From positions 1,742,001 through 1,806,000 of the forward strand of contig JACYXH010000783.1 in NCBI GenBank assembly GCA_026745465.1: a stretch of DNA of 64,000 nt, written 5' to 3'. The stretch comes from Lota lota. Taxonomy: Eukaryota; Chordata; Actinopteri; Gadiformes; Lotidae. The notes under the pieces were generated by a model. That model made no database searches. It was given only the letters and a program-made list of their open reading frames with translations, and was not told the origin of the DNA. A program made the translations under genes and the position numbers. Shown one piece after another: positions 21,501 through 52,671 of this stretch (positions within the stretch are counted from its first letter, which is position 1; each line of letters begins with the position of its first letter).

Positions 21501-24500
21501 CTCTCTCTTTCTCTTTCTTCTTCTTTCTCTCCCTCCACCCCCTCTGTGATGGGTGAAGGAGGAGACAGAAAGAGACAAAAGAGAGAGGGCAAGACTTAGA
21601 CACTGCATTGTTAAAGAGAGAGCAATGATGTAGGTAGAGAGACATTGAAAAATGGGGAGAAAGAGAGATTAGTCTGCCCATCTGCATTACAAATCCTGTA
21701 CATCCCAGACAGACGGTAGGGAAAGAGGGATAAAAAAAGGAAAAGAGGAGATAGAAGGATAGAAAGTAGGAGAGAGAGAAGAGGTTTGAGGGCAATGTAT
21801 TAAACTGAGCCAGCTGTCTCTGTCTTTCTACTGCATTAATAACACACACTTTACTTAACACACCCTTTACACTCTCTCCAGAGCCAATACCTCTAATGGT
21901 GTGTTTATATCTCCATAGGCCCAGCCGCTACCATAGCAGCCGCTACCATAGCAGCCGGTACCATAGCAGCCGGTACCATAGGCCCAGCCTCTACCATAGG
22001 CCCAGCCTCTACCATAGGCCCAGCCTCTACCATAGGCCCAGCCTCTACCATAGGCCCAGCCTCTACCATAGGCCCAGCCACTACCATAGGCCCAGCCGCT
22101 ACCATAGGTCCAGCCGCTACCATAGGTCCAGCCACTACCATAGCAGCCGCTACCATAGCAGCCGCTACCATAGCAGCCGCTACCATAGGCCCAGGACTCT
22201 GGAGGCACAAGTGCTGTGTAGCAAATTGTAGTAGTGTAGCGTGGTGTAGTGGAGCAAAGTGTAGTGTAACGTTGAGTAGCATAGCTTAGGGTATCATAGC
22301 AAAATGTAGCATAGCATAATGTAGCGTGGTGTAGTGCAGCATAGCGTCCTTTATTGGGTAGTGTTTTTGGAAAAGATAAGTGCTGTAGGGAGTTGTAAGG
22401 ATGGTTGTTGAGGGTAAATTAATCAGGTCAATGGTTTTGGGTAATGTTTCATTTTGTAACTTCATTTTTAATGGTGCCATTGCGTTGTTAATAGTTTCAA
22501 AGTAAGTGTTCATTGTTTAAGGCGTTGGTTGGACTCTGCTACCCATCATGCAATGCTGGCGTACTTGGCTGGCGTACTTGGCAGCCTCTGGCGCTAGTTA
22601 GCCTAATGGAGGGTATTTTACAGTAACGTCACATCACATTACTCCAGTTTGCCTGGTGATGTTAATGTGGTCTGGTGGTGGCTGCTAGACACACTGAGGA
22701 GACCGAAGACAGCAGGAGTGTGTGAGTGTGTGTGATTGTGTGTGTGTGTTTGTTTGTGCGCTCGTGCGTGATTGCACACGCTCTTAAGAGGGTAATTCTC
22801 TGACTCAAGCGAAATAGCTGAAATATGTGCTAGACTGTGTGTGTGTGTGTGTGTGTGTGTCCTCCAGTCTAGCAGAACTCTAATGAGAAGGTGTTACCAT
22901 AGTTATCATGTGGGAGGACCACCAGCCCACAATATCCTGTAGTGAGAATCCATGACGGGAGGAGAGGGGAGGAAAATAAATTATACATATTTGCGCGTGT
23001 GTGTCTCCATACACGTCATGGTGTGTGTGTGTGTCTAGGCAGGTGCGTGGCCAACATAACACTGGTTTACAGAACAACACCTGCCGACGCAATCACCCTC
23101 CTCTTCCTCAGCCCTTCCGTTGCCATGGTTTCAGCCATGCATTGACGATGACGCTAAGGAAAAGGCTTCCAAGGTCCCCGGTCTGAAAACATGGCGTTGA
23201 TTAACCTTGCCCTCTAGTGAAACCACGAGTGGGCGAGTCCACCGCCCAGATGTATGATGCATAGATCCGCCCATCAGTTGGTACATTCCAGTGGGTAGGC
23301 TGGTAGGCTGAACTAGTGTAGAGTTCTGGAAGGAGAACTAAAGATCCCGAGATGATTGACACACAGGAAGTGGCAACACTGTTAGACTTGGCGCCATCGC
23401 AGCGGTGTTTGAAGGGTGTGGTACTTGTTATACGTGGCATATTGACCATTCAATTGACCATCGCGCTTCCATGTAACAAAACAGAAAATGTTAAAACCTT
23501 TGCAAATTTGGCACGCGTGTGTGTGCGCATGTGAGTGTGTGTGCATTCATATGTGTGCGTGTGTGTATTCATATGTGTGCGTGTGTGTATGGTTGGAGAT
23601 ACATTAGCAATGTGTATGTTTTCCTAACCAATGCCTTCTCTTGTGTGTGTGTGTGTGTGTGTGTGTGTGTGTGTGTGTGTGTGTGTGTGTGTGTGTGTGT
23701 GTGTGTGTGTGCGCGCACCAGACCTGATCCACTGCACCAATGAGATGAACGTGAGCATCCCCCAGCTGGCTGACACGCTGTTCGAGCGGACCGCCAACTC
23801 CAGCTGGGTGGTGGTCTTCAAGGCGCTCATCGCCACACACCACCTCATGATGTATGGCAATGAGGTGAGGACACACACGTACGCACACACAGCACTTCAT
23901 GATGTACAGCAACGAGGTGAGCATGCACACTTACACACACACACACACACACACACACCACAACATGATATATGCAATGAGGAGAAGACACACACACACA
24001 CACACACACACGACATCCACTTGAACTCGGACCTGAATAAATACTGAAGAAGCACTTCATGTTCAAGTTCCACATTACTCAACCCTTCCTGTTATGGTTC
24101 CTCTTCTGCTGCATCATCCGGATCCTTATCTCCTATTGGAGGAGAGTTGGCGAGAGGGGGGTGGAGTCATGGGGTTTTTGCTTACTATGTGACAGCAATC
24201 TGTCACATAGTCACTGAGCTGCACTTAGAGGTGGGGGAGGGCATTACGTCATTGGTTCTCTCTTAACGACCCTTTAGTGGCCATTAGTCAGCTGCTAATT
24301 AGTGGGGATAACTGATTAGTGTTTTTACTAGCAGAGGCTTTTCTCCAAAGCAACTTACTTGAGTTGAGATGCATGTCTAAAGTGTGAACTGACTAACGTT
24401 TACACAAGGCAATCCAACGGGAATACATCCGGTAACCCATAGCAACCGTAGGGACACTGTCCTGTTGAGCGAAACACTCGACTGTCCAGTCCCGTAGTTT

Positions 24501-52671: not shown

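Follow-up and report, generated by a model that had tools for sequence, protein, structure and literature searches.

Orientation-dependent AC and GT repeats beside the splice sites of picalm in Lota lota

The picalm gene of Lota lota carries an AC run of at least 7 bp within 20 nt of the donor in 12 of its 19 introns (2, 3, 4, 6, 7, 9, 10, 11, 12, 14, 18 and 19) and a GT run that ends within 20 nt of the acceptor in seven (1, 2, 3, 4, 10, 13 and 16); neither a GT run at a donor nor an AC run at an acceptor occurs in any of the 19, within 20 or 40 nt. We propose that this arrangement arose from two effects, each dependent on orientation and independent of the other, in a part of a teleost genome that is rich in microsatellites, and not from a structure that bridges the two ends of an intron, a reading to which we give about an even chance. 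An earlier note on this DNA had named exactly these 12 donors, together with the acceptors of exons 2, 3, 5, 11 and 14. GT runs do end within 10 nt of all five of those acceptors; the same is true of exons 4 and 17, which its list did not include. The note let the pattern begin at 23865, which leaves the exon 2 acceptor (23721) outside.

The window, meaning the whole stretch of DNA analysed, is 64,000 nt long (G000:C783:1742001-1806000) and belongs to an assembly of 575 Mb in 867 contigs. The exons of picalm were found by tblastn, with human PICALM as the query, and the splice sites were set by eye. The resulting gene is complete: its 20 coding exons form one intact frame of 620 codons plus a stop, and 19 of 19 introns are GT-AG. 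A spliced aligner reproduces 15 of the 19 introns exactly and disagrees at introns 12, 13, 16 and 17, that is, in a weakly conserved part of the gene and in the surroundings of the 24-nt exon 17; the manual model was retained there because all its introns are GT-AG and its frame is intact. The gene and the repeat tracts near its splice sites lie as follows.

15381..52671, + strand: picalm coding region, 20 exons and 19 introns (tblastn, in-frame CDS, spliced alignment)
23642..23711, + strand: intron 1, (GT)n of 70 nt, stopping 10 nt before the exon 2 acceptor
23871..24011, + strand: intron 2, AC-rich tract of four runs, from +6 of the donor GTGAGG
31148..31291, + strand: intron 2, (GT)n of 144 nt, stopping 6 nt before the exon 3 acceptor, with no pyrimidine tract
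31384..31493, + strand: intron 3, AC-rich tract of six runs
31527..31535, + strand: intron 3, GT run of 9 nt, stopping 7 nt before the exon 4 acceptor
31664..31842, + strand: intron 4, degenerate AC-rich tract, the best candidate for end-to-end pairing
31935..31953, + strand: intron 4, GT run of 19 nt, stopping 8 nt before the exon 5 acceptor and followed by TTCCTCC (a second GT run at 31914-31924)
32282..32413, + strand: intron 6, AC tract overlapping the donor (GTACAC)
33176..33225, + strand: intron 7, degenerate AC tract overlapping the donor (GTACAC), with pure AC runs at 33187-33193 and 33215-33225
37706..37833, + strand: intron 9, AC tract overlapping the donor (GTACAC)
38413..38420, + strand: intron 10, short AC run at donor +6
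41739..41761, + strand: intron 10, GT run of 23 nt, stopping 3 nt before the exon 11 acceptor, with no pyrimidine tract (a further GT run at 41681-41727)
41898..41946, + strand: intron 11, AC tract overlapping the donor (GTACAC)
42977..42984, + strand: intron 12, short AC run, then (CCCA)n
48829..48840, + strand: intron 13, GT run of 12 nt upstream of the exon 14 acceptor, with TTTTACTTT before the run (a long GT run at 48685-48791)
48993..48999, + strand: intron 14, short AC run close to the donor
51472..51479, + strand: intron 16, short GT run upstream of the exon 17 acceptor
52035..52080, + strand: intron 18, AC tract close to the donor
52324..52450, + strand: intron 19, AC tract from +4 of the donor GTAACA

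Introns 6, 7, 9, 12, 14, 18 and 19 have AC at the donor, and the 40 nt before their acceptors are free of GT runs; introns 2, 3, 4 and 10 carry a repeat at both ends. Both ends had previously been recognised in introns 2, 4 and 10, correctly; intron 3, with its GT run of 9 nt, was left out.

The placement of these repeats is non-random, as had been suspected. When each intron is shifted circularly, which preserves its length and its repeats, 3.02 donor AC and 1.42 acceptor GT runs are expected against the 12 and 7 observed, and none of 2000 rotations reaches either count (the same holds in 5000), at limits of 7 bp and 20 nt that were taken from the wording of the earlier note and are hence not blind. 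With runs of at least 12 bp the acceptor excess persists (5 versus 0.82, P = 0.0005) and the donor excess is weaker (5 versus 1.91, P = 0.0175 at 20 nt; P = 0.088 at 40 nt). AC runs cover 25% of the sequence at 0-10 nt from picalm donors, 43% at 10-20 nt, 30% at 40-80 nt and 3% at 160-320 nt; GT runs cover 29% at 10-20 nt from the acceptors and 3% at 320-1000 nt.

Background, in the form of the repeat density of the window and an orientation common to other genes, accounts for part of this pattern. As controls we used seven atp2b genes and three picalm-family paralogs, picked by gene family and not by repeats, in 230 kb plus 8 kb of sequence from the same genome; the atp2b genes are seven P-type ATPase genes taken in list order, and the controls are therefore not a random sample. 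These PMCA-like genes lie on C142, C627, C705, C376, C555, C310 and C363 of G000, the match on C627 being mostly to the 3' end of the gene. In all, 177 control introns were called (129 in atp2b genes, 48 in paralogs); 49 in which fewer than four of eight flanking residues matched on one side were omitted and 128 were used. Within 20 nt, these hold 4 donor AC, 2 donor GT, 10 acceptor GT and 0 acceptor AC runs; at identity limits of 3, 5 and 6 the same counts become 5/2/10/0 of 146 introns, 2/2/8/0 of 108 and 1/2/7/0 of 89. The preference for donor AC in the controls is weak at 20 nt (4 versus 2.74 by rotation, P = 0.27). At 40 nt, rotation shows AC in excess at control donors (8 versus 3.98, P = 0.024) and GT depleted there (3 versus 7.01, P = 0.043), with GT in excess at acceptors (13 versus 6.90, P = 0.004) and AC depleted (0 versus 4.23, P = 0.0085). 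By sign test this orientation is significant at acceptors (P = 0.002) and not at donors (AC over GT, 8 versus 3, P = 0.23).

Picalm stands out among the genes compared, both for donor AC (12/19 versus 4/128, Fisher P = 6e-10) and for acceptor GT (7/19 versus 10/128, P = 0.0017). When its rotational expectation is scaled by the enrichment in the controls, the donors still depart from it at P = 0.002 and the acceptors at P = 0.037. The description of the window as AC/GT-rich everywhere gave way to that of an atypical window: AC and GT runs of at least 12 bp make up 6.6% of its sequence, 3.6 times the mean coverage of 1.8% at 24 other loci of the same genome, those surrounding the ten control genes (the richest of these loci reaches 4.9%). 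Runs of this length cover 4.6% (AC) and 4.4% (GT) of picalm introns, against 1.0% and 1.3% in the controls. Picalm/AP180-like exons occur at six places in the genome (G000 C783, C367, C864, C310, C249 and C826), and of the four copies examined the one in the window is the repeat-rich one. The abundance of picalm-family and atp2b copies is what a teleost genome would be expected to show.

A trait of the gene family is rejected on the evidence of the three paralogs: their 34 introns include two with donor AC, of which one is the homologous intron 6, and four with acceptor GT. Copying of one intron start into others is likewise rejected: when the starts of the 19 introns (401 nt each) were compared by blastn, they shared matches of at most 33 nt, all of them in repeats. 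Collagen exons were considered as a reference-free sample of introns and discarded, because many PF01391 matches fell on top of one another in a small number of repeats and extended open frames, a pattern that minisatellites would probably produce.

Could the surroundings of the gene alone produce the pattern? Microsatellites may have expanded neutrally in a region rich in repeats, purifying selection removing only the orientations that damage splicing; this reading agrees with the 3.6-fold repeat coverage of the window and with the strictness of the orientation. We nonetheless consider it rather unlikely. Rotation at the gene's own repeat density gives 3 donors and not 12, and removal alone cannot lift the count above 3; since a filter of tolerance alone cannot yield this excess, which stays at P = 0.002 after scaling, either positive selection or a history specific to the gene is needed. 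Nor does the region force AC upon donors. None of five introns from two neighbouring rab genes has donor AC, which excludes a region-wide cause placing AC on every donor, and intron 1 of the rab39-like gene begins GT-rich, opposite to the picalm orientation. Three of these introns come from the rab38-like gene, where three of six called were dropped as unreliable, and two from the rab39-like gene.

The rab39-like gene occupies 724-3704 of the window and beyond on the minus strand, with two introns, and the rab38/rab32-like gene about 7530-10660 on the plus strand, with one exon that matches Rab32/Rab38 in PDB. Both identities rest on PDB sequence matches, and a Pfam search of 20 of the 97 flanking open reading frames gave two Ras-family matches above cut-off.

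A more specific explanation is repeat-bridged splicing of the class described by Lin et al. (2016, Genome Research; cited in PMC6093180, PMC7404189, PMC9198270 and PMC5766209), in which the AC-rich donor end pairs with the GT-rich acceptor end, joins the two sites and replaces U2AF2. The pointer to teleost AC/GT pairing given in the earlier note was right in kind: in about 10% of zebrafish introns, a (GT)n ahead of the acceptor is reported to pair with an (AC)n past the donor, obviating U2AF (PMC6093180; see also PMC7404189 and PMC9198270), and AC/GT-flanked, U2AF2-independent introns are attributed to zebrafish and other fish. Picalm offers several introns that suit this explanation. In addition to the four with both ends, introns 1, 2 and 10 each rank first of 19 in duplex energy with their own acceptor, the acceptors of introns 2 and 10 have no pyrimidine tract, and the computed duplex energies of the 120-nt ends of introns 2, 4 and 10 are -131.5, -90.1 and -71.4 kcal/mol. 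These are the three introns whose ends had been thought able to pair; intron 4 was folded and exceeds its rotated copies, and introns 2 and 10 were computed as end duplexes only. In the base-pair-probability fold of intron 4, 46.9 end-to-end pairs are expected against 11.5 in rotated copies, and 0 of 40 copies reach that value. Intron 12 also exceeds its copies (30.7 versus 11.5, 0 of 12), but its pairing joins (CCCA)n to G-rich sequence and not AC to a GT run. Twelve introns were folded whole, and in the remaining ten one or more rotated copies reach the observed pairing, with only 12 copies each for introns longer than 400 nt.

Bridging, however, predicts that AC and GT occur jointly in one intron, and the proposal that the two repeats act as a pair is not borne out across the gene. 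Both ends occur in 4 introns at 20 nt (4.4 expected) and in 5 at 40 nt (5.7 expected), though with 19 introns a moderate excess could escape; with runs of at least 12 bp there are 0 against 1.3 at 20 or 40 nt and 1 against 1.8 at 80 nt, and looser limits give 5-6 against 5.7-6.3. The controls have both ends in 0 of 128 introns at 40 nt and, with looser limits, in 1-3 against 1.5-4.6 expected. Within picalm, the AC content of the donor end and the GT content of the acceptor end correlate negatively and not significantly (rho = -0.35, P = 0.14), and the duplex energy of an intron's own two ends is no better than that of shuffled ends, being weaker on average (-31.4 versus -35.4 for all pairs, P = 0.77). 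Folding is also no better than in dinucleotide shuffles for intron 4 (z = -1.13) or intron 3 (z = -0.34). Intron 1 has its GT run at the acceptor, yet its donor is followed by no AC run for 701 nt, and the interior GT runs of intron 2 (at +864, +902, +1882 and +2711) and of intron 10 (from +2114) would be transcribed ahead of the acceptor run. On joint occurrence, correlation and shuffled pairing we reject bridging as the organising principle, and we regard it as an unlikely explanation of the pattern; introns 2, 3, 4 and 10 remain individual candidates for it, intron 4 first.

An explanation centred on the acceptors would have GU tracts, bound by TDP-43 or CELF-type proteins or folded as a pUG quadruplex of 12 GU repeats, make the exons regulated. 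The runs of 144 nt in intron 2 and 70 nt in intron 1 are longer than the 12 repeats that make up the pUG fold (PMC12276007), and TDP-43 is reported to prefer long UG repeats and, in excess, to repress constitutive exons (PMC11163724). We find this explanation improbable, as skipping of exon 2, 3 or 11 (143, 76 and 131 nt) shifts the frame, so that repression would destroy the protein, and the AC side is left unexplained. The explanations considered here and that of independent action can coexist.

The 20 nt before the acceptor hold 10 pyrimidines at exon 2, 9 at exon 3 and 10 at exon 11, so introns 1, 2 and 10 are tract-poor, against 13-16 for introns 3, 4, 13 and 16. The view that exons 2, 3 and 14 show almost no tract applies to the first two; exon 14 has a usable one (13 pyrimidines, 12 of them U, in 20 nt, with TTTTACTTT and the 12-nt GT run upstream), and exon 11 belongs with the poor ones. 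At donors, recognition follows complementarity to U1. Scored over +3..+6, AC-flanked picalm donors reach 0.43 against 1.89 in controls (P = 0.02), a comparison that is partly circular where AC covers these positions. GTACAC donors account for 4 of 19 in picalm and 1 of 126 in controls, two GC-donor introns having been omitted from these donor comparisons only, and from their sequence several picalm donors appear to retain little U1 complementarity past +3. A CA tract closely downstream of a weak donor, as in hnRNP L enhancers, is found in 12 of the 19 introns.

We propose the following course for the two independent effects. An AC run contains neither GT nor AG and would be harmless beside a donor, where a GT run would supply many false donors. 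Bound by an hnRNP L-type protein, as other systems suggest, the AC tract could act as an intronic enhancer that sustains a weakened donor. A GT run, being free of AG and half U, could serve before an acceptor as a poor but passable substitute for a pyrimidine tract. Slippage would then have lengthened the repeats that stood in the permitted orientation and, in several introns, carried them into the donor sequence (GTACAC). Single introns (4, perhaps 2, 3 and 10) may be assisted by pairing, which would not organise the overall pattern. Two published observations fit this proposal poorly. Human UG repeats of at least 12 units are reported to be over-represented around 5' as well as 3' splice sites (PMC12276007), a misfit with the argument from false donors. 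The other concerns CA repeats, which appear in the predicted clusters D.IE.14 and A.IE.9, read by us as donor-side and acceptor-side intronic enhancers (PMC2777938): D.IE.14 favours the proposal, and A.IE.9, with CA repeats at the acceptor side as well, counts against it. A bolder version, which we think improbable, is that picalm splicing depends on dinucleotide repeats gene-wide, AC replacing the U1-complementary part of several donors and GT replacing several pyrimidine tracts, each through RNA-binding proteins, with splicing that varies with repeat length between individuals.

The CA repeat of eNOS reportedly lies just downstream of the donor, and in CFTR exon 9 a U tract is said to follow the UG repeats. 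Picalm resembles the hnRNP L CA-repeat enhancers (eNOS; Hui et al. 2003, referenced in PMC2777938 and PMC13174678) in its CA tracts just past the donor; those enhancers are presented as shown in mammals, whereas the picalm tracts are candidates only and occupy many introns of one gene. With CFTR exon 9 and TDP-43 (referenced in PMC12276007 and PMC13174678) picalm shares UG directly before the acceptor, but the CFTR tract is described as causing exon skipping, and in picalm three acceptors combine a GU run with almost no pyrimidine tract. That hnRNP L associates with AC repeats, and TARDBP with GT repeats, is treated as established in PMC13174678 and speaks for the proposal of independent action. 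As the Lin et al. introns are summarised in the papers that cite them, picalm has in common with them AC after the donor, GT before the acceptor, a fish host and some tract-poor acceptors, and introns 2, 3, 4 and 10 carry a repeat at each end. It is unlike them in that most affected introns carry one repeat, with joint occurrence at the level of independence, and in the heavy clustering within one gene and the entry of AC into the donor consensus (GTACAC); AC/GT-flanked introns as such are already described, and these last two features are what is specific here. Our search by title and start of abstract returned no report of AC donors clustered in one gene, which is not proof of absence from print. 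Haddock and cod genomes are described as rich in short tandem repeats (PMC5894186), and these codfish resemble the present genome in their dense dinucleotide repeats.

Joint versus separate occurrence distinguishes two readings of fish AC/GT introns, and in picalm and the 128 control introns joint occurrence is not above expectation, while the acceptors do follow the orientation rule. Picalm has 12 AC donors and 7 GT acceptors and its three paralogs have 2 and 4 in 34 introns, which makes the gene a convenient natural system in which to ask whether repeat length affects splicing.

Pattern counts across the whole genome did not show an excess specific to AC donors, tandem arrays inflating them and effects of flank and register being mixed with splicing. 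The donor-like pattern MAGGTACACACACAC occurs 1786 times. With the flank permuted (MGAGTACACACACAC) the count is 176, and with the three other bases in place of the G it is 2528 in sum, or 843 per base. A version limited to AAG gives 569 against 531 for three bases (177 each), and GT in the same comparison gives a larger ratio, 3094 against 1688 (563 each). AGGTRAGTACACACACAC occurs at 7 places in the genome. Clusters of AAGGTACACACACAC at G000:C79:85941-86313, C87:1405799-1406373 and C90:341020-341362 inflate the donor-like counts.

Some further features of the window deserve mention. EED, which we take to be a PICALM neighbour, has no credible match anywhere in it. Exon 17 of picalm (51486-51509) is 24 nt long, in frame, and encodes NGLFYTSY; it presumably has no counterpart in human PICALM and is possibly a regulated microexon. 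Within intron 13, at 45980-47005, lies a minisatellite with a unit of about 25 bp (GTAGCTACTGACGTAGAGACCCAGG, read by eye) that is open in several frames.
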